From positions 1-42,148 of the forward strand of contig NZNM01000089.1 of NCBI GenBank assembly GCA_002694885.1: DNA of 42,148 bases, read 5' to 3'. A model generated the notes under the pieces. That model did no database searches. It saw only the letters and a program-made list of their open reading frames with translations, and was not told where the DNA came from. Position numbers and translations under genes: made by a program. Positions 1,696 through 34,366 of the stretch are shown here, piece by piece (the first letter of the stretch is position 1; every line of letters starts with the position of its first letter). This DNA is from Opitutaceae bacterium. Its GTDB lineage: Bacteria > Verrucomicrobiota > Verrucomicrobiia > Opitutales > Opitutaceae.

Positions 1696-2229
1696 CTACT
1701 TTCTGGGCCGAAAGACTTTCATGGCGGATTCGTCCGTTTCCAGATAGGCGCCTCCTATAAGATCGATACAGTAGGGTATAGCGGGAAAGACGGCTTCCAG
1801 GTTTTCCCGAATGGCTTTCGGTTTTCCTGGCAGATTTACTATGAGACTCTTACCTCGGATTCCGGCGGTTTGCCGAGACAGGATTGCCGTGGGCACATAT
1901 TGCAAAGAAGCCCGTCGCATTTCTTCGCCAAATCCAGGAAGCATTTTTTGGCAGACACTTGCGGTAGCTTCCGGAGTAATGTCGCGTACCGCTGGACCCG
2001 TTCCGCCAGTGGTTACAATCAAGCTGCAAGACGCGTCATCGCTAAAGCGTTTCAGCGTCGCCTCAATTTGCTCTTGCTCGTCGGGCACTACCGCATACTC
2101 GACTTCGAATGGCGTGGTCAGCCACTCCTTCAGCAAGTCGACACAAGCCTTGCCTGGAATGTCTTCGTAGATTCCTTTCGATGCCCGATCGGATACATTG
2201 ATCACGCCGATTCTCGCTTTATTTGCCAT
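1696..2229 (-). CDS. mog: molybdopterin adenylyltransferase (MogA/MoaB family)
   Basis: A cytoplasmic enzyme of molybdenum cofactor synthesis that adenylates molybdopterin before metal insertion. The 177-residue product has the MoCF-biosynthesis fold: GVINVSDRAS near the N-terminus, TTGGTGP (73-79), the RDITPEAT segment with D83, and LPGKPKAI (133-140), all typical of MogA. The frame can be extended 10 codons upstream to a TTG at 2259, but ATG 2229 begins the conserved MANKARIGVIN stretch and is the better start. The gene converges on the histidine kinase with a 32-bp gap. No other Mo-cofactor genes are in the window. Family assignment is firm; MogA versus the closely related MoaB is less certain. 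Confidence 0.88.
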   Translation of the reverse strand: MANKARIGVINVSDRASKGIYEDIPGKACVDLLKEWLTTPFEVEYAVVPDEQEQIEATLKRFSDDASCSLIVTTGGTGPAVRDITPEATASVCQKMLPGFGEEMRRASLQYVPTAILSRQTAGIRGKSLIVNLPGKPKAIRENLEAVFPAIPYCIDLIGGAYLETDESAMKVFRPRK

Positions 2230-2549
2230 GAGTTGAATGGCTATTGAATATGTAGCCAAGGTCTACGGAAAAACGCCCGAAGAGAATAGAGCGTTTTAGA
2301 ATCTGAAACAATTTCGGCGAGCGACTCAACGCAGAGAAGATCAAGGGTCGCAAAGCCTCGCCCGCCTTGCGCGGCTTGAATCTGGTTCTGCGCCATAGGC
2401 TCACTCTTTTCGTAATTGGTATTAATTCGTTTGCTTGCGGTCGTATGAAGGTTCGACTTGCAGGATTGACAGGGGAGCGTGAGAGAGAAGCATGGGAGAC
2501 GAGCTTTAGTAGGCTGACGATAGCATGGCAGCGGCTCGAACATTAGCTG
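2230..2549. other. intergenic gap between divergent mogA and Minf_1886 gene
   Basis: About 320 bp between divergently oriented genes, so both promoters should lie here; I could not assign clear -35/-10 pairs. A minus-strand 51-codon frame (2241-2396) ends 11 bp before the mogA start, but it has no recognisable domain and only a weak ribosome-binding site. I do not call it a gene. Confidence 0.4.
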
Positions 2550-2990
2550 ATGAAAAAGCAGAATTTTTTAGAGATGGTGAACCTGATCGTCAAAGAAGAC
2601 GATCGCTACACGAGAGAAGCGTACGGTTTTCTAAAGGAAGCGCTCGATTTCACCATGGATAAGGAGCGAAAAAGCAAGGGAAAGGTTGTTAGCAAAGTTC
2701 AGAGGCATGTCACAGGCCAGGAGCTACTTGAGGGTGTGCGCGAGTACGCACTGGATCAGTTCGGCCCCATGGCGTACACGGTGCTAACATCCTGGGGCCT
2801 CGAACGCTGCGAAGATTTTGGGGAAATGGTGTTCAATCTTATCGAGTATGGAGTCTTCAGTAAGAATGAGGATGATACTAAAGAAGACTTCGCTGCTATC
2901 TACGATTTCGAGGAAGCTTTTTTGAAACCCTTCCAGCCAGACCGTCGCCGATTGAAGCGCCCCAGGTATAAGGTGATCGAGTCCCTCTAG
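2550..2990 (+). CDS. Minf_1886 family protein (Verrucomicrobia/Planctomycetes-restricted)
   Basis: A 146-residue protein that I recognise as the Minf_1886 / TIGR04138-type family, restricted to the PVC group and of unknown function. Visible signature parts are DDRYTREAYGFLKEALDFT near the N-terminus, RHVTGQELLEGVREYALDQFG in the middle (split here as RHVTGQELLEG and YALDQFGPMA), a tryptophan-glycine turn (SWGLERCEDFGEMVF), then YDFEEAF before a basic tail rich in R and K. There is no signal peptide or membrane segment, so it is probably cytoplasmic. It stands alone between the mogA promoter region and the M16 peptidase gene 78 bp downstream. It is mainly useful as a lineage marker. Confidence 0.85.
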   Translation: MKKQNFLEMVNLIVKEDDRYTREAYGFLKEALDFTMDKERKSKGKVVSKVQRHVTGQELLEGVREYALDQFGPMAYTVLTSWGLERCEDFGEMVFNLIEYGVFSKNEDDTKEDFAAIYDFEEAFLKPFQPDRRRLKRPRYKVIESL

Positions 2991-3068
2991 CGATACCTAT
3001 CGAAAAGAGTCGCTTAACCGCGTGGACTTTCCATTGCTAGCGTCTAAGCGGCGCAAGTTTCGCAAATC

Positions 3069-5648
3069 ATGAGTAAGCAACATTCATTTTTGGACGCTGG
3101 TCAATCGGATGCCGATTTGCTGGAGTCACTAGCCACAGAGTCCTATCATAGGTACCAATTGGACAATGGCTTAACGGTTCTCTTTAGACCCGATCGCTCA
3201 CTAGGACTGTGTTCGGCCCAAGTTTGGATCAAATCAGGAAGCATTCACGAAGAGAAAAGTTTAGGTTCGGGCTTATCGCACTTTCTGGAGCACATGCTTT
3301 TCAAGGGAACAGAGAAGCGAGAAGGACGGGAAATTTCTGAATGCGTCCAGGCAGCTGGCGGCTACATAAATGCCTACACTACATTTGACCGGACAGTTTA
3401 CTACATAGACATCCCGTCCGAAAATATCGACGTGGCTCTCGACGTGTTGAGCGATTCGGTATTCAAGTCTACCTTGCCGCCAGATGAGATTGAGAAGGAA
3501 CGGGACGTCATCCTGCGTGAAATAGACATGGGGAATGACGATCCGGATCGAAAACTGCTTCGGGCTTTATTTGAAACCGCATTTCGAGAGCATCCATTCA
3601 GATATCCGATAATTGGCTACAAGGACCTATTCGCCAATGTTTCAAGAGACGAACTTGTAGCGTACTACGAACGTCGTTATGTTCCGAATAACGCCGTTTT
3701 GGTGGTTTCGGGCGACTTCGATGTTCAAGACATGAAGGCGCGGGTAGATCGGCTTTTCGGCGACTTGCCCCGCAAGCCTTTGCCCAATATCTATATTGCT
3801 CCTGAGCGTAGGCAGCTAGCTTATCGCTCGAAAGCCCTCTATGAGGATGTGCAAATCGTACGGGTGGCGATGGGATATCAAACGCCGGGACTGTCTCATC
3901 CCGATACACCAATTCTCGATGCGCTTTCATTAATTTTGGGTCATGGATACAGCTCCTTGCTCTCTGTTCATTTGCGCGAGAAACTGAAACTCGTCCATAC
4001 GATCGATGCCTCCAATTGGACGCCAGGCGAGCTAGGCGTATTCTACCTGGCTCTGGTATGCGATACAGACAAGCGACAAGAAGCTTTGGCCGAAACAAAA
4101 CGGTTTCTACAATCACTCTCGGTAGCCGACTTTTCGGAAGACCGCATTCGTAAGGCTGTCAGGCAGCTTATAGTGTCTGAAATCAATGCTCGCAAGACCG
4201 TTAGCGGACAGGCGTCGAAGCTCGCCGCTGCCGAAGTAGTTGTCGGCGATATACGCTATGCCGAGCAATATATCCGCAAGGCCATGCGAATCACTCCTGA
4301 CGATTTGATACGCGTATTGAAAGATTGGCTGCTAGAAGAAAGGATGACGGTGGTTTCGCTTAATCCGAAATCCTTGGAATCGGAGGATGCCGAGGCTTCG
4401 AACTGGCAAGACGGCGGTACCGACTTCGAGACTCGGAAGCAGCCAAACGGAAGTGTGTTGCTTACGCGATCGGACAATCGCCTTCCGAATACGCACTTAA
4501 GAGTCGTCTTGAATGGCGGCTCTCTATTGGAGGACTTCGGGAAGCAAGGTTCTACGTCGTTATTGGCTACCTTGCTAACCAAGGACACGGAGAAGAGAAC
4601 TGCCAATGAAGTTGCCCAGGCGGTCGAAACCGTTGGCGCTAGTTTCCATGAGTTCGCCGGCAATAATAGCCTAGGGCTTGGTATCGATTTTCTGCCGACG
4701 GATATCGAATTGGCAATAGACATCGTGGAACAGGCGCTCCTTTACCCGAAATTCGATGAAGAGACTTTTAGTATCGAAAAGGAGGCCCATTTGGCGGCGA
4801 TCAAGGAGGATCTTGATGATGTTGTTGTCGCTGGCCGACGGAAACTGAGAAAGCTGTTTTTTGGCGACCATCCCTTTAATCTGGGAGGTTCTGGATCGCT
4901 AGAAACGGTGGAGCCATTGAAGACCGGAGATCTCGACGATCTGCGCGGCCGATTGCTAGTTGCAGGAAATGTGACTCTGGTGATTTCTGGCATGTTCGAT
5001 GAGGAAATCGTTATTCCGAGACTGGAGACGCTGATGGCGAAATTACCGCAAGGTGAAAAGCCTATCGGGGATTGTCAGTTTGACGGGCCGGACGCGCCTG
5101 GCATTCACCGATCGCCGATGGACCGACAGCAGGCGGTGGTCTTCCATGCCTATCCTGGACCTGGATTGCTGGATGACGATTTTCATGTATCTGAGGTTGC
5201 TGATGAGTTGTTTAGCGGCATGTCGAGCCATTTGTTCGAACGGGTCAGAGAAAGCCTAGGCTTGGCGTACTTTATTCGATCTAGTCGTATCGTAGGGCTG
5301 AAAACGGCTATGTTTTACTTCTATGCGGGAACGTCGCAGCAAGGCTACGATCAAGTAATCGAGGAATTGATCGCGGAAATCGAACGGGTTCGAGCAGGAG
5401 AGATTGCGGACGAGGAATTAGCCCGCTGCCGATCTCGATTGAAGGCGGCTCGTCGCATGGGATTGCAGACGAACGCGTCCTGCTCAAGTCACGCGGCCAT
5501 GAATGTGGCCTACGGTTTGCCGGCGAACGATGGTTCTGAATACGACCGGAAGATCGGCTCCGTCTGCAAGGAAGACCTTGCCCGATTCGCAGAACGGTAT
5601 TTCAAGGAATCCAGCCGGGTCGAGCTGGTTGTAGGAGCCATCAAATAA
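3069..5648 (+). CDS. M16 family zinc metallopeptidase, two fused M16 units
   Basis: An 859-residue protein made of two pitrilysin-type halves. The N-terminal half carries the inverted zinc motif HFLEH (H71, E74, H75) followed by GTEKR and, 76 residues after H75, the third ligand E151 in ILREIDM, so this half should be catalytic. The C-terminal half (~430-859) is an M16-like fold without zinc ligands: the position equivalent to HxxEH reads STSLLATLLTKDT. It ends with the RESLGLAYFI segment that supplies substrate-contacting R and Y residues in this family. No signal peptide is seen, so it is probably a cytoplasmic oligopeptidase; substrates are unknown. The gene stands alone, with no Shine-Dalgarno at its ATG. 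Confidence 0.92.
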   Translation: MSKQHSFLDAGQSDADLLESLATESYHRYQLDNGLTVLFRPDRSLGLCSAQVWIKSGSIHEEKSLGSGLSHFLEHMLFKGTEKREGREISECVQAAGGYINAYTTFDRTVYYIDIPSENIDVALDVLSDSVFKSTLPPDEIEKERDVILREIDMGNDDPDRKLLRALFETAFREHPFRYPIIGYKDLFANVSRDELVAYYERRYVPNNAVLVVSGDFDVQDMKARVDRLFGDLPRKPLPNIYIAPERRQLAYRSKALYEDVQIVRVAMGYQTPGLSHPDTPILDALSLILGHGYSSLLSVHLREKLKLVHTIDASNWTPGELGVFYLALVCDTDKRQEALAETKRFLQSLSVADFSEDRIRKAVRQLIVSEINARKTVSGQASKLAAAEVVVGDIRYAEQYIRKAMRITPDDLIRVLKDWLLEERMTVVSLNPKSLESEDAEASNWQDGGTDFETRKQPNGSVLLTRSDNRLPNTHLRVVLNGGSLLEDFGKQGSTSLLATLLTKDTEKRTANEVAQAVETVGASFHEFAGNNSLGLGIDFLPTDIELAIDIVEQALLYPKFDEETFSIEKEAHLAAIKEDLDDVVVAGRRKLRKLFFGDHPFNLGGSGSLETVEPLKTGDLDDLRGRLLVAGNVTLVISGMFDEEIVIPRLETLMAKLPQGEKPIGDCQFDGPDAPGIHRSPMDRQQAVVFHAYPGPGLLDDDFHVSEVADELFSGMSSHLFERVRESLGLAYFIRSSRIVGLKTAMFYFYAGTSQQGYDQVIEELIAEIERVRAGEIADEELARCRSRLKAARRMGLQTNASCSSHAAMNVAYGLPANDGSEYDRKIGSVCKEDLARFAERYFKESSRVELVVGAIK

Positions 5649-20304: not shown

Positions 20305-21945
20305 TTACAGTTCGGGGGCGATATGCCAATCGCGAGGATAGACAACATCGTAGGCAGTTGTGAAAGTCTTTTCGGCTTTTGGCTGCAGTACGGCTTCCCA
20401 TTGAAAGATGCCATTGTTTTCATTTTCTTCATCGATGACGACTTCGCTATCTTTTGGGGCGTTACGCCGGATTTCGATCTTGGAATTCTGGGCGATTGGA
20501 AACTGATCGACGATGATTACCTTGTGAGCCACATTGTGCTGACTGACGACCTCGTTTCTGTGCTCCCGTTTTAGCGTAGTGGTTTTGTCAATAAATCCGG
20601 AATCGGTATCTTTTTGGGCTCCTTCAGTGCGCTTGACAACGATATTGCCGTCCACGCCAAGGGAGATATCCCTTTCCTCGTCGGGAAGGATTTTTTCGAG
20701 GTAAACTTTGGAAGACAGCTTACCTTCAACGAAGGCCAGGGCTTGCCCAGGCAGAATTGGCAGTGGCAGCGTGTTCTTGAGTTTGGCCCGCAGATAAGCA
20801 TCCAGTTGTATCCGAGGAACGGATTCCGACCAATACTCGGCTCCGATGGATTCTTCTAGAATTTTGTAGGCGCTGCTGTCCTTGGCGCTGGGAACGGTCA
20901 TCTGCCCCGGGATGGTCGCCTGAAAGGAAACTGTGGAGGCCGTAACTGCGGCTTGCTGCTGGCTCGCTGGTCGTGCTGATTTTGCGCTGGCCGCGTCCAC
21001 TGAGAAGGGAGACAACTCGAACACCTCTCCCTGAGATTCAGCTCGCCCTCGGTAGGTGTCCTCCAGTTTCCGAACGAGCAAAGGCGGTGGTTCCGGCACA
21101 TTACCTTGTCGGCTCGCTTGGTTGGTTTGCAGAGAAAGTGTGATGTCTGACCAGTCTTCTCCCGTATGCTGCCAAACGGATGCAAAGTATCCGAAATCCA
21201 GAGACCCATTTTCGGGTGAAGCGCGCAACTCGTATTGGGGAACCCAGCGAGCATTGTTGGCCAAGTAGCTGACAACAATTCCGATCTCGCTCGCCGCCTC
21301 CATTTCGATTTCCACTTCAGCGATAGACGATAGCAAGGCAGCGGTTTCTACAGCCTCTCTAAGCTCAAATTCGATTTCCTGAATCCGTTCGTCGATATCC
21401 CGCATAGCCGTTTCAGATTGGTCGATAGCTTCATAGGCGTCCGCTTGCGTTCGCTGTACGAAGGCGCTTAGTTCTTTGGCTTGGTCCAAGGAAAGGGATT
21501 CACCCTCATCGATCTTGCCGAACTCTGCTGCGAACGATTCCCGCATAGCGTTGGCGAATTCCATATTGGTCTTAGCTTCTGTATGGATTCTTAGCTGTCT
21601 CTCCTTATCTTTTTTGGCGTCGTCGAGCCGATCGCGGATGGCTTTGATGATATCGCTTTCTTGGCGCTCTTCCGGTCGGAAGATCTTCGCGTTGCGTATC
21701 AGGCCATTGGTGGCATCGATGAAATTGGCTTGCAGGGCTGAAGAATCGACTTGGCTGGGCAGGTTTTTAAATACGAGAGTTGATTTGCCCGAGGGAGCGT
21801 TTAGGGTTCCTGTCCGCGTAACCAGAGCTCCGTCGCGAAAAAGCGAAACTTCGGTGATAGCGGACTCGACTTCGATATCGTCGGCCAGGGAAGTTGGTAT
21901 AAAAAGGAGAACAGCAATAAGGGCGAAGGAAACTTGAAATTTCAT
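20305..21945 (-). CDS. exported DUF4140/DUF4139 (MuiA-like) protein with ELSPFSVDA motif
   Basis: A 546-residue protein with signal peptide (MKFQVSFALIAVLLFIPTSLA, cut before DD). The N-terminal DUF4140 domain (~25-130: AITEVSLFRDGALVTRTG) leads into a long coiled coil (~95-205), then the DUF4139 domain (~225-546: ARWVPQYELRAS, GEDWSDITLSLQTNQ, and the YLRAKLKNTLPLPILPG block). Family members are called mucoidy-inhibitor MuiA-like, but the function is not established. Inserted in DUF4139, at residues 308-318, is VFELSPFSVDA, nearly identical to the mature N-terminus of the TonB receptor at 30635. This is unexpected in this family and may be an interaction motif. No Shine-Dalgarno is seen. Confidence 0.85.
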   Translation of the reverse strand: MKFQVSFALIAVLLFIPTSLADDIEVESAITEVSLFRDGALVTRTGTLNAPSGKSTLVFKNLPSQVDSSALQANFIDATNGLIRNAKIFRPEERQESDIIKAIRDRLDDAKKDKERQLRIHTEAKTNMEFANAMRESFAAEFGKIDEGESLSLDQAKELSAFVQRTQADAYEAIDQSETAMRDIDERIQEIEFELREAVETAALLSSIAEVEIEMEAASEIGIVVSYLANNARWVPQYELRASPENGSLDFGYFASVWQHTGEDWSDITLSLQTNQASRQGNVPEPPPLLVRKLEDTYRGRAESQGEVFELSPFSVDAASAKSARPASQQQAAVTASTVSFQATIPGQMTVPSAKDSSAYKILEESIGAEYWSESVPRIQLDAYLRAKLKNTLPLPILPGQALAFVEGKLSSKVYLEKILPDEERDISLGVDGNIVVKRTEGAQKDTDSGFIDKTTTLKREHRNEVVSQHNVAHKVIIVDQFPIAQNSKIEIRRNAPKDSEVVIDEENENNGIFQWEAVLQPKAEKTFTTAYDVVYPRDWHIAPEL

Positions 21946-25585: not shown

Positions 25586-27130
25586 CTAGCGATGATCCAC
25601 CCCTTCGGTGATCATGGGCCAATTGTCGGTGCGGAAAGGCGTAACCGGCAGCCCATTGCGGCCGTATAGATTGCAAACGGGATTATTGGCCCAAGCGTAG
25701 CGAACGGCGATCGGCTTGCTTACGGAATCGCTCCACACTTCGACGGTGTTTTCGTCGATGACCTTAGCGGAGGCCCAGACGAATTTCCTGTCCTCCCCAG
25801 CAATGGCGAATCCTTTGATTTCCGCGGTATCAAAGGCCCTAAGACCTCCGTCTCCGAGGTGATTAAAATCGATTACTGCTTTTGAGCCCTTGACCTGCAT
25901 GGATTTGAACCGCGGACTTTGATAGTCGATATCGAACCCATAGTCGCGAGCCAAGGCCCAGCGGGCTAGGCGATTGGCCACCGTATGCTTGTCGCGAGGA
26001 TGAATGTCTCGGTCTTCACCTGCGTCGATAATCACAGCCTGACCGGTGTTTGGCAGGCGATCCAAAGTCATGGTCTGAGCCTCCCGCAGTTCGGCCCAAT
26101 CTTCATCGACGGGTTTATCGACTTCCGCTCTGAAATCCGCCAACTGCACAAAGTAGAACGGAAAATCGCCTTGGTCCCATTCGTCTCGCCAGTGCTGGAT
26201 CATGAGGGGGAAAAGCTCTCGGTACTGATGGGCCCGCGAGGCGTTGGCTTCGCCCTGATACCAGATCGCTCCTTTGATTCCGTATCCAATTGTTGGTTTC
26301 AGTACGCCGGCGTAGAGATTGCCTGGTCGATGTTGCCCCACGAGTGGATTGCGAGGCGCCCGCGGGCGATTGCCTTTGGAACCGTCGCCTTTCCATTTGG
26401 CCAGTCGCGTTTCGTATTTGGCTATTTCCGCATCGTGGTCATAGGTTCGCTCGGTCTCCTCCCAGTGCTCGATCAGCCCACGATAGCGTCGGTTCGATTC
26501 CAATACATCGCGTTTAACCCAAGCCTCGGCCGCGGAACCTCCCCAAGCATTATCGATGAGTCCGACAGGTACGCCCAGCGCTTGGCGCAACTGGAGGCCA
26601 AAACGATAGCCGACTGCAGAAAAATTGCTCACGATATCGGGTGAGGCGTGAGACCATTCGCCGTCGAAGTCGCGCTGTGGTTCCTGCGTGCCCACTTGAG
26701 GGACCGTGATCAGTCGCAGTTGAGAGTCCTTAGCGGTCAGAGCAACCAGATCCCCATCGTAGGACTGGGATACGGACCACTGCATGTTCGATTGCCCCGA
26801 GCATATCCAAACTTCCCCGACAAGGACATCGTCGTACTCAAGTGTGTTCTTCCCTTTAATTGTCAACCGATGAGGTCCGCCTGCGGGCAGCGGTTTCAAG
26901 GTTACTCGCCAGTCCCCTTGCCGATTAGCCTTCGTTTTATGCTGCTGGTCGCCAATGGAGACAGTTACCTGCTCTCCTGGATCGGCCCAGCCCCAAACGG
27001 GATTGGCCTGATCGCGCTGCAGAACCATGTGGTCGCCGAAGACGGAAGGCGTCGCGACATCGGCGTGGGCGATGATGGGAGATATCAGAATTGCGGATGC
27101 GAATAATAAATGGGTGATCAAGGCATTCAT
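25586..27130 (-). CDS. secreted sialate O-acetylesterase-like carbohydrate esterase
   Basis: An exported SGNH-type esterase that removes O-acetyl groups from glycans. ATG 27130 begins a good signal peptide (NALITHLLFASAILISPIIAHA); the frame extends 21 codons upstream to a TTG, which I reject because it would bury the signal peptide. The mature protein of ~490 residues has an N-terminal beta-rich domain (GDHMVLQRD...VWGWADPGE), catalytic serine in CSGQSNM (S114), the NAWGGSAAEAWV block with the oxyanion Gly, GAIWYQGEANA, and the Asp-His pair in DRDIHPRDK. The sialic acid specificity in the family name is not shown; many members act on other acetylated sugars. The sulfatase gene is upstream on the same strand. 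Confidence 0.9.
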   Translation of the reverse strand: MNALITHLLFASAILISPIIAHADVATPSVFGDHMVLQRDQANPVWGWADPGEQVTVSIGDQQHKTKANRQGDWRVTLKPLPAGGPHRLTIKGKNTLEYDDVLVGEVWICSGQSNMQWSVSQSYDGDLVALTAKDSQLRLITVPQVGTQEPQRDFDGEWSHASPDIVSNFSAVGYRFGLQLRQALGVPVGLIDNAWGGSAAEAWVKRDVLESNRRYRGLIEHWEETERTYDHDAEIAKYETRLAKWKGDGSKGNRPRAPRNPLVGQHRPGNLYAGVLKPTIGYGIKGAIWYQGEANASRAHQYRELFPLMIQHWRDEWDQGDFPFYFVQLADFRAEVDKPVDEDWAELREAQTMTLDRLPNTGQAVIIDAGEDRDIHPRDKHTVANRLARWALARDYGFDIDYQSPRFKSMQVKGSKAVIDFNHLGDGGLRAFDTAEIKGFAIAGEDRKFVWASAKVIDENTVEVWSDSVSKPIAVRYAWANNPVCNLYGRNGLPVTPFRTDNWPMITEGVDHR

Positions 27131-27221
27131 GAGTTTGAGGCAGTTGGGTGGTATTGGAATGGGCAAGGCTGCAAAGCGCTTGAGACGGGTCAATTCGTAA
27201 AGAAGTAGGGCGGTCCCAAGA

Positions 27222-27282
27222 GTAGTACAGGCTTCCAGCCTGTGTCCGACGGGAAATACACAGGCAGGATGCCTGTTCTACC
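27222..27282. repeat. REP-like inverted pair, family B
   Basis: GTAG-T-ACAGGCT-TCC-AGCCTGT, a spacer, then the inverse copy (ACAGGCA-GGA-TGCCTGT) ending TTCTACC. Related elements are at 27505-27555, 29900-30141 (outer arms) and 36803-36903. Upstream of the sialate esterase gene. Confidence 0.8.
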
Positions 27283-27346
27283 TTATTCGCGGGCTAAAGC
27301 GCCGCGCTACTCTTTGACTAGCTTGATCAAAAAAACAGTCCCGAAT

Positions 27347-27373
27347 GGTAGGGCCGACTGTCCCCAGTCGGCC
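27347..27373. repeat. single REP-like hairpin, family A
   Basis: GGTAG followed by GGCCGACT-GTCCCC-AGTCGGCC, a perfect 8-bp stem. Compared with other family A copies the stem has paired changes that preserve base pairing. Unlike the others it has no inverted partner. Confidence 0.75.
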
Positions 27374-27477
27374 GAAAAAGTGCCGATACCAGCGACGCCG
27401 CTGATGGTATTAGAGATGACCGATGTTTAATACAGTACCAATGCCCCCGTGCAATTGCGTGGTTGTAGACTGTGGAA

Positions 27478-27500
27478 GTGGGCGATCTCTGAGCACCCAC
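27478..27500. repeat. family G hairpin variant (GTGG head)
   Basis: GTGGGCGATCTCTGAGC followed by ACCCAC: the GATCTC-GAGC core of family G with a GTGGG...CCCAC stem. Five bases before the family B pair at 27505. Confidence 0.5.
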
Positions 27501-27504
27501 AAAT

Positions 27505-27555
27505 GGTAGCATAGGCTTCCAGCCTGTGTATAAACAGGCAGGATGCCTGTTCTAC
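27505..27555. repeat. REP-like inverted pair, family B
   Basis: GGTAG-C-ATAGGCT-TCC-AGCCTGT, a five-base centre, then ACAGGCA-GGA-TGCCTGT-TCTAC. The left stem contains a wobble pair. Between the esterase and sulfatase genes, in a ~570-bp gap made almost entirely of such elements. Confidence 0.8.
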
Positions 27556-27584
27556 TCTTTTGATATGGTCGCTCGGCTCGCGCC

Positions 27585-27620
27585 GCCGAAGCGATGTGAA
27601 GGAGTGAGGTCGAACGCTAC
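27585..27620. repeat. 36-bp repeat (copy of 25501-25537)
   Basis: Begins GCCGAAGCGATGTGAA and ends CGCTAC, differing from the copy at 25501 at a few positions. The preceding GGTCGCTCGG also occurs at 42071. Confidence 0.6.
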
Positions 27621-27661
27621 TTCAAGAAGGCGGGAGACCTTTATTTTCACCTCTAGCTAAA

Positions 27662-27691
27662 TCTGAGTTCATCTGAGTCTATCTGCGGGCA
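27662..27691. repeat. three 10-bp tandem units (TCTGAG/TCTGCG)
   Basis: TCTGAGTTCA, TCTGAGTCTA and TCTGCGGGCA follow one another with a 10-bp period, just after the sulfatase stop. A related 9-bp-period run (CAGAT, CAGAT, CGGAT) lies at 34550-34572. Confidence 0.55.
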
Positions 27692-27697
27692 AAAATC

Positions 27698-29569
27698 TCA
27701 GTGCCCTTTCTCCATGAATTCCATGACGCGGACGTCGTAGGCTTTGTAACGGCCCATCCAGGGAGCGGCGCTGAGTTCTTTGGCGTTGCTGGGCCAGAGG
27801 GATTGAGAGGTTTTCAGCACTCGTTGATTGTAGGGGTAGCCCGCTCTCACATGGTCCATGGCGTTGATGGCGTGGAGGCGAGCCATGACGTTGGGGCTGT
27901 TGAGCAAAACGTCGTTGAGAACGGGACGCGGATCTTTCTTGCCGATTCTAGCTAGGTGCTCAGCGGCGGCGATTCTATTGGCTGCCACGGGACTACGAGT
28001 GCGAGCGTTGATGAGACGCAAGGCCTGTTCGTCTTCGGTTTTCAGAACCAGGCAATTGACTAGAGCCCAGTATTGGACAACTGGATGCGGATCGCGTAAT
28101 CCTTTTACTAGATCGGGAAGGGCGCTCTCGCCTTTGTCCAGCAAAGCATCCGCCATATTGAGGATCTTCATCAGCGGGTACTGGTCCCGGTCTCGGGAAA
28201 TGTTGAAGGGAATTTTTCCGGAACTGCGGGTCCATTCGACTAGAAGCGACTCGGGAATGAATCCGGTATCGAAGGTATCCAGTATATGCTTATGATTTGC
28301 TTCCCGCATGCGAAGCAAAACGTCACGGTAGGCCGGATCATTGGCCAGATTGTTGACCTCGTCTGGATCCTTTTCCAAATCGAAAAGCTCTTCGAGTGGA
28401 GCCGGTTGGAAGAAGGCGCTTTGAGCCGCATTGGTCTTGCCTTCGCGGAACAGGCGCTCCCATTCCGGAGTCGCTGGGTTGTCCCAAAGATAGTCGACGC
28501 GCTGGCCCGTGGGCAAGTAGGCGAGATAATTGCGGATGTAGTTGAATTTTCCATCAGTCACCCCGCGTTTAAAGTCGATTCGTTCGTCAGCTCGGGCTCG
28601 AAAAGTGTAGGCGTATTGGGGAGCTGGAGACCGCTTTTCCCCAAGAAAAGCTCGCCCTTGCATGTGAACCGGGATATCCGCTCCAGCCAGGCTCAATAGA
28701 GTGGGGGCGAAGTCGACGAAGCCCACGATCTCTTCCGCTCGAGAACCAGCCTTATGTGGCATGAGGTGGGCCCATTTTTCGGGTACGCGAACGATCAAGG
28801 GAACGTGAGTTCCCGAATCGTAGATAAAGCGCTTGCTGCGGGGCATGATGCCGCCGTGATCCGAGTAGTAAAAGATGATGGTGTCTTCTAGGAGCCCGGC
28901 ATCTTCCAGCTCCTTGATGCGATTGCCCATGTAGCTATCCATTTCGTTGATACGCGTGTAGTAGGCGGATATGCGCTCGCGGACAGTTGCCGTGTCGGGC
29001 AGGTAGGCGGGCACGCGAATCTTATCCAATGGCACATTGGCTTCGACGGTATGCCGAATTGGATGCAAGCAGCTCTCGTGGGTTAGGTTGGTATTGAAGA
29101 TAGCGAAGAAGGGTTTGCCTTCTGGGCGGTTCTTCCAGTGGGCGTTCCGGCTACTCTCGTCCCAGCCTGGAGTGTTCTGGTCGATGTTGTAGTCCTGCTT
29201 GCTGTTGTTGGTCGTGTAGTAGCCGGCTTCACGCAGATATTGCGGATAGATTTTCATGTTTTTGGGCATGGGCACTTGGCTGCGCATATGCTCACCGCCG
29301 AAGGTATAGGGATAGGTTCCGGTTATCAGAACCGTGCGTGCCGGACCGCAAACAGCCGCGTTGGCGTAGGCGTGCTCGTAGACAACCCCTTCGGCCGCCA
29401 GTCTGTCCAAGGTAGGCGTATTGGCGTGTGGATTCCCGTAGGGACCTAAATAGTCCGGGCTGTTGTCCTCGCTGGTGATCCAGACAATATTGGGTCGATC
29501 GGCCGCGATTGCTGTGACAGCGACAGCTAGGTAAGCTACCAAGCTTCGAAAAAGGGGAAAACGATTCAT
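27698..29569 (-). CDS. secreted sulfatase with C-terminal HEAT-like repeats
   Basis: An exported type I sulfatase that cleaves sulfate esters (or N-sulfate) from glycans. The signal peptide ends near AIAA-DRPNIVW. The metal site includes TSEDNSPDYLG, and the formylglycine motif is C74-G-P-A-R, so an anaerobic or FGE-type maturase elsewhere in the genome is needed. YYSDHGG supplies further metal ligands. Residues ~480-590 form short helical HEAT-like repeats (VQYWALVNCLV, RIAAAEHLARIGKKD, RLHAINAMDHV), seen in some sulfatases resembling N-sulfoglucosamine sulfohydrolase. The gene is followed on the same strand by the sialate esterase. Substrate is not predictable in detail. Confidence 0.92.
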   Translation of the reverse strand: MNRFPLFRSLVAYLAVAVTAIAADRPNIVWITSEDNSPDYLGPYGNPHANTPTLDRLAAEGVVYEHAYANAAVCGPARTVLITGTYPYTFGGEHMRSQVPMPKNMKIYPQYLREAGYYTTNNSKQDYNIDQNTPGWDESSRNAHWKNRPEGKPFFAIFNTNLTHESCLHPIRHTVEANVPLDKIRVPAYLPDTATVRERISAYYTRINEMDSYMGNRIKELEDAGLLEDTIIFYYSDHGGIMPRSKRFIYDSGTHVPLIVRVPEKWAHLMPHKAGSRAEEIVGFVDFAPTLLSLAGADIPVHMQGRAFLGEKRSPAPQYAYTFRARADERIDFKRGVTDGKFNYIRNYLAYLPTGQRVDYLWDNPATPEWERLFREGKTNAAQSAFFQPAPLEELFDLEKDPDEVNNLANDPAYRDVLLRMREANHKHILDTFDTGFIPESLLVEWTRSSGKIPFNISRDRDQYPLMKILNMADALLDKGESALPDLVKGLRDPHPVVQYWALVNCLVLKTEDEQALRLINARTRSPVAANRIAAAEHLARIGKKDPRPVLNDVLLNSPNVMARLHAINAMDHVRAGYPYNQRVLKTSQSLWPSNAKELSAAPWMGRYKAYDVRVMEFMEKGH

Positions 29570-30634: not shown

Positions 30635-33600
30635 ATGATCAAAAACAACCTATTAAGGCTGGCGCTTGCTGGCCTCCTAACCACAGGGCTTTACGTACAG
30701 GCTCAGGATGACGAAGTCATCGAGCTGTCGCCCTTCTCCGTCGATGCCGCGGATGACGTAGGCTACCGAGCCACCACTACATTGGCCGGTTCCCGTGTCC
30801 GTTCGAACATCGGCGACCTTGGCGCTTCAATCGCGGTCGTGACTGAGGAATTCATGGAAGATACCGGAGCTACCGACGGCGAGTCACTGCTCCAGTTCAT
30901 TGGCAACGTCGAAGTCGGGGGAGTTCTTGGTAATTTCTCGAATTCAGACGGCGGCAATGGAACCGTTGAGTCCCGTGTCAATCCGCAGCGAAGTCAACGT
31001 GTTCGCGGTCTTGTTTCTGCGAACCTGACCCGCGATTATTTCCAAACGGACATTCCTTTCGATTCTTACAACACCGACCGTGTTGTTGTGAATCGTGGCC
31101 CGAACTCAATTTTGTTCGGTCTGGGATCTCCGGGGGGTGTAATCAATAATAACCTTAAGCGCGCTTACATCGGTCAAGATAACACCGAAGTTTCCATTCG
31201 TTTCGACCATCGTGGAACGTTGCGTGGCACATTCGATATCGGCCGTACGCTGATTGACGATCGCTTAGCGATTCGGGTTGCCGGACTTAGCGAGAAGCAG
31301 AAGTACAAGCAGAAGCCTGCAGTAACGGATGACACCCGGTTGTACATGGCGTGGGAGGCGACAATCTTCAAGAATGAGAATAGCAACTTCCTCGGCCGGA
31401 CTTCATTGCGGGGTAGCTATGAAACGGGCGAGATTGACAGTAATCCACCTGACGTAATTCCTCCAACGGATTATTACTCTTCATGGTGGAATGGACTGGG
31501 GACGCAGGAAGAGATCAACTCGATACTCAGCGTTCCAGGAACGGACTTGGACGATATCGACAACGGAGCATTGACCCAGCAGAACGTCGCAGCGCTTCTT
31601 GACGCTGGGATCGAAACAATCCCATCTACTTTCACTGGGACGCGCGAAGAGTTCATAGCTCAGGAAGGTATGTTCATTCCTCGCACAACAGTAGACCGGT
31701 TCAAGAGAGGCGATCCACTGAAAAATGACCCGACTCAAGGGGGTCGACTAAACAGTGTGCAGGGAACGCCTTACTTTTTGTTTCCTGCGATCAATTTCAA
31801 TTCGCCGAACGATCAAGTTCCGGGTTGGGACAATGACCCCCTACTTTCGGGTGCCCTCAATGGTTTCGGAATTCAGGGTATAATGGCTCGTTGGCGGCCA
31901 AGGGGATTCGCAACTCAGGATGTTCGCTGGTCTCGTGCGGCAACAGGGGGCACTGGCTTCTCTGCGAAGTCTATGAGAGATCGTAACGTATTCGACTACC
32001 ACAATTATCTTTTCATGGGTACGACCAACGACATCGTTACAGATTTCGATCTAAATCAGGTCTTTTTGGTCCAGGAACTATTTAACGGGAATGCGGGTAT
32101 CGAGCTTGCATTTGATACTCAAGAGCGAAAGCAAAAGGAGTTCACACCGTTTGATACTGGCGACCGGAAGGCAATACAGATCGATTTGAGCGAAAACCTC
32201 TCCCCAGGAGATTCTGATTTTGACGGGGTCGCTGATCGCTTGTTTAATGAGAATCTTGGTCGTCCGGTTATTCGATGGAACGACAACTTCGTTCGGAATC
32301 GCACCAACGAGCAGGACACGTTTCGTGCAACCGCCTTCGGTACATTGGATTTCGAAAAGTTTTCGAACAACGACTTGATCTCAAAGTTCCTAGGCAAGCA
32401 CACGATCACGGGACTGTACGAGGATCGCGAAAATATTAATCTGCAACGTCAGATTCGCGGTTCCTGGTGGGCCGATAACAGCAAGTGGCCTGGTTCTGCG
32501 GAAATTTCTAATGGCCTAAGCGACAACTTCCGCCGTATTGTAAAGAGCCAGGTCTACTTAGGTCCTGATGTTCGGAACTTCACGAGTCCCGGGCAAGTTC
32601 GCATTGACGGATACTTGGATGTACCTTTCCCGAAGATTGGGGACGAGTACGGCATTTGGTACTTTGACAATAAAGAGAAGACTGATAAGCAAGCGATTTG
32701 GAGAATCATCGAGAACGAGGGCCCTGCCAGCTACAACAAGAGTAGGCTAGTTTCTGAGGCATACTCAGTGCAGAGCACGTTCCTAGACGGTCATGTCGTT
32801 GCTCTTTACGCTGAGCGTTCGGATACTCAGGATGCCTACTTGGCTCCTAATCCTGGTGGCTATGGTGCCGCTGGTCCTGACGGAGCCCTTCGTTTGGATT
32901 TGGAAGGCACGAATGAGGTGGACGGAACGTACAATGCGGATCTCCTCTACTTCAACGCTACGCCGGACAGTATAAACACAGGCGATACGAGTACGAAGAG
33001 CTTGGTAGTAAAGTTCCCAGAAGAATACCTTTTCGAATTGCCATTTGGAATGGACCTTCAAGCTCACTACTACGAAGCGGATAGCTTTCAGCCTGCAGGC
33101 GTATCTGTTAACCTGCTAAACCAGCCTTTACCGCCGCCATTGGGGGTTACTGAGGAAAAAGGTTTTCAGGTTACGATGTTAGATGGTCGTCTGGCTATAA
33201 GGTACAACGAATTCACGACTGCCCTTAACAACGATCGGACAAACCTAAACGGTGGTTTAGCCAACATCGGCAATCGGATAGGGTTCTACCTTGATAGAAT
33301 AACGTCGGCTCAGAACGATCCTTCGACGAACTTGTTCCCTGATGGTTATTCGCCTGATCCGAATGTGACTGGCGACTATGCTGACTTCTTCGCCAACAGG
33401 GGTAATTATACCACAGTTGATGCGGATGGAAACCCTGCTGGGCCTGGGGATAGTGATGCGGCGAAAAAGCCTGACACATCTCCAGACAATCGTCAGCGGC
33501 TTACAGGAACGGGAGCTGACCTCATCGGCGTTAAATCATGGGATGAATACTACAAAGCAATCCAAGACGCCGTAATTCCCGAGCTTCAAGCTATTCGCAA

Positions 33601-34366
33601 CCATCGCGTTGAGACTCTTGAGAGTGGTGAAACTGTCGATCTTTCTGATCCACAACCAGGGCTGAACTCAACCCGGGATTTCGTATCTGAGGGAACTGAA
33701 GTAGACATCGTTGGGCAGGTAACGAGAAACCTGACAATATCGGCGAATGTTGCTCAGCAGACGACTGTTACATCTAACACCGGACCGGTTGCAGTACCTC
33801 TGGCATTCGAGCAAGCAGAGCGCTTGAAGCGTCCGATTGGCCCCGACGGCTATAGCTTGTGGGACCTGCGTGGTTCGCCATTCCAGCGAGAGTCGGACCA
33901 AATTGGGCAGCGTTTTCAGAATAACGCACTCAATAGAATCATCCTAGCTAAGTCCTTAGACGGAACTCAGTTGCCAGAACAACGCGAGTGGCGTGTCAAT
34001 GTAACAGCGCGCTACGACTTCCTGGATGGTCCATTGAAGGGCTTCCAAGTTGGTGGTAGTTTGCGCTACCAAGATGCGATAGCTGGCGGCTACCCGAACG
34101 TCCTAGACGAAGACGGCAACGTGCTTCCGGACGTAACGAAGCCATGGATGGGACCTGACTCCACAGACGGAGACCTGTTCCTTCGTTACCGTAGGCCAAT
34201 AATGAACAATCGTGTGGACTGGAGTGTTCAGTTCAATGCACGTAACGTTTACAGAAGCAGCGGTGACAGGGATATTCCAATCGAGTTCAATCCGGACGGT
34301 GCGGTTACGTACGTACGTGTTCCTGTGGAGCAGATGTACTTCCTGACCAACACCTTCAGTTTCTAA
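30635..34366 (+). CDS. large TonB-dependent outer-membrane receptor (Opitutae type)
   Basis: A 1243-residue outer-membrane transporter for energised uptake of large substrates, probably glycan fragments. A signal peptide ends at about A23; the mature N-terminus is QDDEVIELSPFSVDAADD (residues 24-41), the motif seen at this place in many Opitutae receptors and possibly serving as TonB box. The plug domain (~48-190) has TLAGSRVRS, VVVNRGPNSILFGLGSPGGVIN and an FDHRG strand. The rest forms the barrel, ending in TNTFSF with the C-terminal phenylalanine needed for outer-membrane insertion. No SusD-like partner is adjacent, normal for Verrucomicrobia. A very strong terminator follows. Substrate guess rests on the nearby sulfatase and esterase. 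Confidence 0.95.
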   Translation: MIKNNLLRLALAGLLTTGLYVQAQDDEVIELSPFSVDAADDVGYRATTTLAGSRVRSNIGDLGASIAVVTEEFMEDTGATDGESLLQFIGNVEVGGVLGNFSNSDGGNGTVESRVNPQRSQRVRGLVSANLTRDYFQTDIPFDSYNTDRVVVNRGPNSILFGLGSPGGVINNNLKRAYIGQDNTEVSIRFDHRGTLRGTFDIGRTLIDDRLAIRVAGLSEKQKYKQKPAVTDDTRLYMAWEATIFKNENSNFLGRTSLRGSYETGEIDSNPPDVIPPTDYYSSWWNGLGTQEEINSILSVPGTDLDDIDNGALTQQNVAALLDAGIETIPSTFTGTREEFIAQEGMFIPRTTVDRFKRGDPLKNDPTQGGRLNSVQGTPYFLFPAINFNSPNDQVPGWDNDPLLSGALNGFGIQGIMARWRPRGFATQDVRWSRAATGGTGFSAKSMRDRNVFDYHNYLFMGTTNDIVTDFDLNQVFLVQELFNGNAGIELAFDTQERKQKEFTPFDTGDRKAIQIDLSENLSPGDSDFDGVADRLFNENLGRPVIRWNDNFVRNRTNEQDTFRATAFGTLDFEKFSNNDLISKFLGKHTITGLYEDRENINLQRQIRGSWWADNSKWPGSAEISNGLSDNFRRIVKSQVYLGPDVRNFTSPGQVRIDGYLDVPFPKIGDEYGIWYFDNKEKTDKQAIWRIIENEGPASYNKSRLVSEAYSVQSTFLDGHVVALYAERSDTQDAYLAPNPGGYGAAGPDGALRLDLEGTNEVDGTYNADLLYFNATPDSINTGDTSTKSLVVKFPEEYLFELPFGMDLQAHYYEADSFQPAGVSVNLLNQPLPPPLGVTEEKGFQVTMLDGRLAIRYNEFTTALNNDRTNLNGGLANIGNRIGFYLDRITSAQNDPSTNLFPDGYSPDPNVTGDYADFFANRGNYTTVDADGNPAGPGDSDAAKKPDTSPDNRQRLTGTGADLIGVKSWDEYYKAIQDAVIPELQAIRNHRVETLESGETVDLSDPQPGLNSTRDFVSEGTEVDIVGQVTRNLTISANVAQQTTVTSNTGPVAVPLAFEQAERLKRPIGPDGYSLWDLRGSPFQRESDQIGQRFQNNALNRIILAKSLDGTQLPEQREWRVNVTARYDFLDGPLKGFQVGGSLRYQDAIAGGYPNVLDEDGNVLPDVTKPWMGPDSTDGDLFLRYRRPIMNNRVDWSVQFNARNVYRSSGDRDIPIEFNPDGAVTYVRVPVEQMYFLTNTFSF

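Follow-up and report, generated by a model that had tools for sequence, protein, structure and literature searches.

Results and Discussion

The window, by which we mean the whole analysed stretch of 42,148 nucleotides from contig NZNM01000089.1 of an Opitutaceae bacterium (assembly GCA_002694885.1), encodes on its minus strand (20305..21945) a protein of 546 amino acids that belongs to the MuiA family. The open reading frame matches the NCBIfam model TIGR02231 over residues 29-540 with 267.9 bits against a curated cut-off of 112.6, which makes it a full-length member, and both domains of the family are present, namely DUF4140 (residues 32-129, 21559..21852, minus strand, Pfam E 5.4e-11) and DUF4139 (residues 224-537, 20335..21276, minus strand, Pfam E 6.6e-42). 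A likely Sec signal peptide was recognised by eye at about residues 1-21 and a lipobox cysteine was not seen; from its sequence the protein is predicted to be exported and periplasmic. Its DUF4139 domain is interrupted by a hypervariable loop predicted to be disordered (residues 278-336, 20938..21114, minus strand), which alignments and a structure model place between two DUF4139 strands. The AlphaFold2 model, built with 8 sequences and having a mean pLDDT of 76.7, consists of beta domains and long helices, and its pLDDT falls below 50 at residues 278-294 and 296-336, with flanking strands at 264-272 and 341-343. No convincing fold match was found in the PDB (highest TM by query length 0.17 among the 50 matches listed), nor a credible solved relative by sequence (three matches with E 0.1 to 0.42), and a relative of P0003 was not found on viral contigs.

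Residues 308-318 of this protein, encoded at 20992..21024 on the minus strand, read VFELSPFSVDA. Further along the window, on the plus strand, lies the gene of a TonB-dependent receptor of 1243 amino acids (30635..34366; ORF and Pfam), in which VIELSPFSVDA occupies residues 28-38 (30716..30748) directly after a signal-peptide-like stretch, that is, at the position of the TonB box. The N-terminal segment of the receptor as we modelled it in receptor alignments and profiles, from the TonB-box region to the plug start, spans 30704..30871, and the plug domain PF07715 (residues 61-169, Pfam E 1e-6) spans 30815..31141. Genes for a SASA-type esterase and a sulfatase (25586-29569) adjoin the receptor gene and may point to the use of a sulfated or acetylated polysaccharide. 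A TonB gene was not found among the 20 window proteins scanned; TonB_C matches occurred in all 10 genomes searched, the window's own genome having 10 of them.

The two 11-residue segments agree in 10 of 11 residues. Their near-identity and the position of the motif had been noticed in an earlier sequence-only reading, and both are right, the gene lying on the minus strand. That reading had set the motif next to a low-complexity AQ/S-rich stretch, a placement that has to be corrected, as the motif lies inside the DUF4139 domain, in the loop predicted to be disordered. From its position only, we infer that ELSPFxV is the TonB box of the bacterial group of the window, and receptor TonB boxes are described as flexible in the consulted part of PMC9249621. 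The DUF4139 protein thus carries a TonB-box-like segment, but at residues 308-318 and not after the signal peptide. The segment sits in a flexible region (the loop with pLDDT <50) of an exported protein, as it would in a TonB client, the signal peptide having been judged by eye only. The protein is not itself a receptor: Pfam returned only DUF4139 and DUF4140 at E up to 1, with no plug domain PF07715, and a beta barrel was not noted in the 546-residue model.

Comparing the two motifs codon by codon, we found 3 identical, 7 synonymous and 1 non-synonymous codons. The 7 synonymous differences bear out the earlier proposal that identity is held at the protein level and that the motif is no recent DNA copy.

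We asked how surprising this resemblance is within the own genome of the bacterium. The loose pattern E-L-x-P-F-x-V occurs at 9 places, which are 7 receptor starts (one of them in a broken copy), the DUF4139 gene and one place, taken as chance, inside a protein that by eye looks RND-like; the reversed control pattern occurs at 1 place. Against that single control match the loose pattern alone is unsurprising and proves little, whereas the 10/11 match is surprising: for the core ELSPFSVDA, a crude expectation with independent letters is about 3e-5 per proteome of 1.1 million residues. When an alignment of receptor N-termini was searched against the same genome, the DUF4139 gene was found at E 2e-4, with a weaker non-receptor place on contig C50 at E 0.0025 that is likewise taken as chance. 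The receptor alignment A1 was searched in 12 genomes, where part of the matches were identified. In the broken receptor copy of the own genome (L034 / L275, G000:C68), the N-terminal segment is kept and the frame ends after about 60 residues. Receptor numbers vary widely in genus g1: across 11 genomes, the matches per genome range from 4 to 58.

Profiles built from receptors were then searched against 146 DUF4139 proteins. A first profile was made from 34 N-termini of the genus's receptors; in every protein that it matched at E <0.1, the best stretch falls in the linker. The control of this search (20 shuffles each plus reversed sequences) reaches 9.1 bits and E 0.003. A broad profile of 66 family sequences (79 matches minus duplicates) gave at least 10 bits for 7 of the 146 proteins, all from family f1: L051 (43.5 bits), L142 (35.2), L056 (27.1), L169 (24.8), L050 (15.6), the window protein L001 (15.0) and L059 (11.7). 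None of 7300 linker shuffles reached 10 bits (best 7.2) and neither did any of the 146 reversed proteins (best 9.5). The longest matches are NEEIFELSPFSVDATNKNGYAETSTIAGARL in G415 (E 8.5e-15) and one in G401 that runs through the plug start; in the best-matching proteins, what is shared with receptors goes beyond the motif and covers TonB box and plug start. Alignment search, profile and codon comparison agree in that the window segment matches the own receptors beyond chance.

These data bear on the simplest alternative, that the resemblance is fortuitous or an echo of the conserved PELxPWxV-like DUF4139 strand preceding the loop. Such strands are found nearby in many orthologues, and the loose pattern gives about one chance match in the own genome, which is what this explanation would need. 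The window protein, however, has the counterpart of that strand separately, as PEPPPLLV ahead of the motif, the shuffles fell short of the observed scores and the matches reach 30-50 residues in relatives, so we hold chance or echo to be very improbable.

To see which part of the receptors is shared, 176 linkers (146 from DUF4139 proteins, one of them empty, and 30 from the VWA proteins described below) were compared with 81 receptor ORFs, which had been picked by profile and cut at locus ends, the same receptor recurring from several loci. At E up to 0.01, 15 linkers (7 DUF4139, 8 VWA) gave 624 alignments, of which 566 start in the region from box to plug start and 58 upstream of it, running into it. 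No alignment starts in the remaining plug or the barrel, to which about 90% of the compared receptor residues belong. Within this comparison, the sharing is therefore specific to the receptor N-terminus and does not extend to receptor sequence generally. The empty linker, here as in the broad-profile search, is that of L184 (G410:C16), where the DUF4139 of one congener is only a 112-residue frame and apparently a remnant.

The codons of a second pair point the same way as those of the window. The DUF4139 loop of G398 and a receptor of the same genome are equal in 23 of 23 residues (GGEGVTVLSPFEVETTGAQGYLE), encoded by 10 identical, 13 synonymous and 0 non-synonymous codons in a stretch chosen for its identity; over 32 codons the counts are 11, 17 and 4. 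For the insert of G415, the best DNA match to a receptor covers 36 bases at 83%. A recent DNA copy from a receptor is thus disfavoured by the two codon-compared pairs and the one DNA search, which covered G415 and the own genome of the window, and the synonymous divergence indicates that the segments are old, or under strong constraint at the protein level, or both.

DUF4139 relatives turned up in 40 of the 236 genomes searched for the class and in 165 of 252 for the family, and few of them have the box. Contrary to what the sequence-only reading would require of a conserved feature of MuiA-like orthologues, the motif is present in 1 (G415) of 8 congeners with a readable linker and absent from the other 7. 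The G415 loop exceeds the motif: its NEEIFELSPFSVDATNKNGYAETSTIAGARLRS corresponds to the N-terminal stretch of a receptor, TonB box and plug start included. Some box-free congeners keep a stretch like EAVGSRLRAQKVA at the place where G415 has TIAGARLRSQKVA, of which it may be a remnant. Outside the genus, the box also occurs in G402 (genus g150), and a degenerate box in G405.

For a wider count we used four regular expressions on 123 family linkers, taken from the proteins fetched from the 165 family genomes with a match, weak or partial matches being mostly left out; L066 (a near-copy of L044) and L184 were dropped, and where the GEDW landmark was missing, as in a few proteins, the linker start was set at residue 280. 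The core expression matches 19 of the 123 linkers and leaves 104 without it; shuffling the family linkers gave a mean of 1.06 and a maximum of 4 matches in 500 rounds. Against 6.5 to 7.0 linkers expected from the rate in the rest of the proteins (59406 aa with 37, 40 and 39 matches), the strict, mid and core expressions were seen in 14, 25 and 19 linkers, respectively, while the 'ext' expression matches 16 of 123 linkers and nothing in the rest of the proteins, all four expressions having been written after the linkers had been looked at. The core box was found in 0 of 12 linkers from the order or class outside the family and in 0 of 9 linkers from other phyla, of which the mid expression matches one. 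Among the proteins compared, the LSPF form was observed only in the family of the window (order Opitutales).

A motif of the form VNMQ(A/S/T)(F/L)T recurs in many family DUF4139 linkers (L006, L014, L119 and others). We considered VNMQxxT as a variant TonB box and rejected it, the DUF4139 gene being the sole match in each of the 6 genomes, out of 7, that have a match.

The receptor-like pieces are also variable in content. Three species of genus g149 (L142, L169, L116) hold three different ones, the linker of L059 holds a plug-start-like and a box-like piece in reversed order, and the plug start is present without a clear box in L169 (DUF4139) and L232 (VWA). The patchy distribution together with the members having only the plug start speaks for fast turnover, and leaves room for a reader other than TonB or for neutral grafting, in which ectopic recombination would bring copies of receptor pieces into disordered linkers that tolerate them, to drift there functionless. 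The turnover between congeners and the three different pieces in g149 are what such grafting would produce, and receptor genes are numerous. We nevertheless regard it as improbable: none of the 624 alignments, from 15 linkers and with repeated receptors counted, begins in the barrel or the remaining plug, no recent copy appeared in the two codon-compared pairs or the one DNA search, the 13 synonymous to 0 non-synonymous codons of the G398 match (17 to 4 over the longer stretch) argue for protein-level identity, and there is a small parallel in Bacteroidota, described below.

Beyond the DUF4139 proteins, YfbK-type VWA proteins (PF12450/PF12034) carry the segment as well. By PF12450, they were found in 57 of 100 family genomes and are absent from the own genome of the window. 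Among the 30 loci with the best matches in those 57 genomes, 9 reach at least 10 bits with the broad profile, the best (L228) scoring 81.9 bits over 53 positions, and 0 of 6000 shuffles reached 10 bits (best 6.1). Read by eye, their layout starts with an anti-sigma-like stretch and one likely membrane helix, followed by the linker with the receptor-like segment and lastly by the VWA part. The gene directly upstream encodes sigma-70 region 2 and 4 domains according to Pfam at 4 of 4 loci (L284-L287) and was recognised by eye as a sigma-like frame at L282 and L283, so that all 6 loci read have one; 5 of these 6 carry the segment with at least 10 bits, L287 being no carrier. An example is the gene at L284:953-3963 (minus strand), which follows its sigma-factor gene. 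By eye, the YfbK-type proteins of the family look like transmembrane anti-sigma factors; at E up to 0.001, an anti-sigma or FecR domain was not found in four of them, the matches being vWF_A, VWA and YfbK_C only. In G405, a VWA protein (PF00092; L288, G405:C6, minus strand 1888-3864) has a signal-peptide-like start followed by YELSPFEVSGPSTGGYRATSTLSATRIRT and is, as judged from its sequence, a third kind of non-receptor carrier. The earlier suggestion that the segment would be met in exported proteins other than receptors is supported.

The unit that these proteins share with receptors also raises the question of who reads it. In place of TonB, the segment could dock onto another factor that recognises receptor N-termini, such as a factor for sorting or quality control at the outer membrane, a protease of the periplasm, or a partner in sigma/anti-sigma signalling. 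The unit often includes the plug start, and in L169 and L232 this stands alone, although contact with a TonB box needs none of it; a pure TonB-box tag would predict neither such members nor the reversed order in L059, and the YfbK-type carriers sit after sigma-factor genes. In the window, however, the shared element is the box itself, and in receptors TonB is the known reader of this place (PMC9249621); we consider a reader other than TonB unlikely.

The parallel outside the family comes from Bacteroidota. In the corresponding loop of a Persicobacter DUF4139 protein, a CarbopepD_reg_2 domain (E 1.5e-16) precedes LEEVVVVGYGTPAQGQLAGAVSGI; the loop contains EEVVVVGYG and a plug-start-like stretch, which is the Bacteroidota form of the receptor N-terminus. 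A tblastn search with this segment led to places annotated as TonB-dependent receptors, with 31-46% identity among the matches listed, most of which end near the plug start. The combination of CarbopepD_reg with DUF4139 in Bacteroidota is one that domain databases may show already. YfbK-type proteins of Bacteroides finegoldii and Bernardetia have, by eye, a Bacteroidota-type box, so that in this small sample 1 of 2 DUF4139 and 2 of 2 YfbK-type proteins are carriers. By eye, a receptor-like box was not seen in the DUF4139 proteins of Aureibacter, Pseudomonas, Bosea, Comamonas and Ruegeria, nor in the YfbK-type protein of Nostoc or in the part read of that of Shinella. The proposal that the motif is specific to Opitutae was too narrow, because Bacteroidota proteins carry the Bacteroidota form of the segment.

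With the alternatives weighed in this way, we favour the reading that the loop segment of the DUF4139 protein is a TonB-docking tag on a non-receptor client, to which we assign a probability of roughly 0.55; this agrees with the docking tag for a shared periplasmic partner that the sequence-only reading had suggested. On this reading, the protein would be exported by the Sec route to the periplasm, where the disordered loop that splits its DUF4139 beta domain would present a replica of the TonB-box region that the cell's receptors have. In the manner known from receptors, the C-terminal domain of TonB could pair with the box in the loop by strand addition, and the DUF4139 protein would then be pulled by the ExbBD-TonB motor or compete for it. 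Contained within this docking-tag reading is the case of a decoy, in which the loop would bind TonB and limit receptor traffic without any work being done on the DUF4139 protein. The soluble look of the protein and the position of the box in a loop, not at a terminus, suit a decoy; nothing decisive speaks against it, the loop-split beta domain suiting mechanical coupling equally well, and we judge it a rather unlikely special case.

The docking-tag reading can be extended, much more tentatively, to a class. TonB may have non-receptor clients among the DUF4139 and YfbK-type VWA proteins of the receptor-rich Opitutales family and of Bacteroidota, which can carry the receptor N-terminus of their host's own group; in the family of the window, the YfbK-type protein would be an anti-sigma factor spanning the membrane, and through the TonB box on its periplasmic side the occupancy or pull of TonB would set sigma activity, so that the cell would sense its TonB load. 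We judge this wider proposal less likely than not.

Comparison with known systems

TonB-ExbBD is generally viewed as serving outer-membrane receptors. If the proposal is true, the motor has further jobs in regulation and envelope mechanics, the little-understood families DUF4139/MuiA and YfbK acquire a role open to testing, and the occupancy of TonB may set sigma factors. Peptides and TonB C-terminal domains allow a direct test of the idea of a TonB tag.

The closest likeness is to the receptors themselves. The segment has the sequence of their N-termini between TonB box and plug start, and its best examples also keep the receptor order of box, GYxAxxTLAGTR and VVTxxFLxDTGA; it differs in that its host protein is no receptor and gave no plug domain match. 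Group B colicins, too, are non-receptor proteins that have a TonB box, but these are foreign toxins, whereas the carriers described here are the cell's own predicted periplasmic proteins. To the MuiA/DUF4139 family (TIGR02231) the window protein belongs over its whole length, but most members examined are without a receptor-like segment. MuiA of Pseudomonas inhibits swarming and enhances biofilm formation, and a link of MuiA to TonB is not made in the consulted part of that work (PMC7603352). In those parts of the open-licence PMC literature that were consulted, we did not come across a receptor TonB box described for DUF4139 or YfbK proteins.

Two systems come near to the YfbK-type carriers. 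PMC12204202 proposes motor-driven inner-membrane vWA force transducers related to YfbK that would act much as TonB and TolA do. Those proteins and ours have in common a YfbK-related vWA fold and the suspicion that they are linked to a Ton/Tol-type motor; ours differ by another N-terminus, in which the SHLS helix was not noticed, and by the receptor-like segment. A search of the available text of PMC12204202 for 'TonB box' and 'DUF' gave 0 occurrences each; its proposal agrees with a Ton/Tol link, though the claim is another one than ours. FecR-type cell-surface signalling, as described in the consulted part of PMC9249621, likewise unites an anti-sigma factor, an ECF sigma factor and TonB. There it is the receptor that has the TonB box (PMC9249621), while here a receptor-like box is found on the putative anti-sigma YfbK-type protein.
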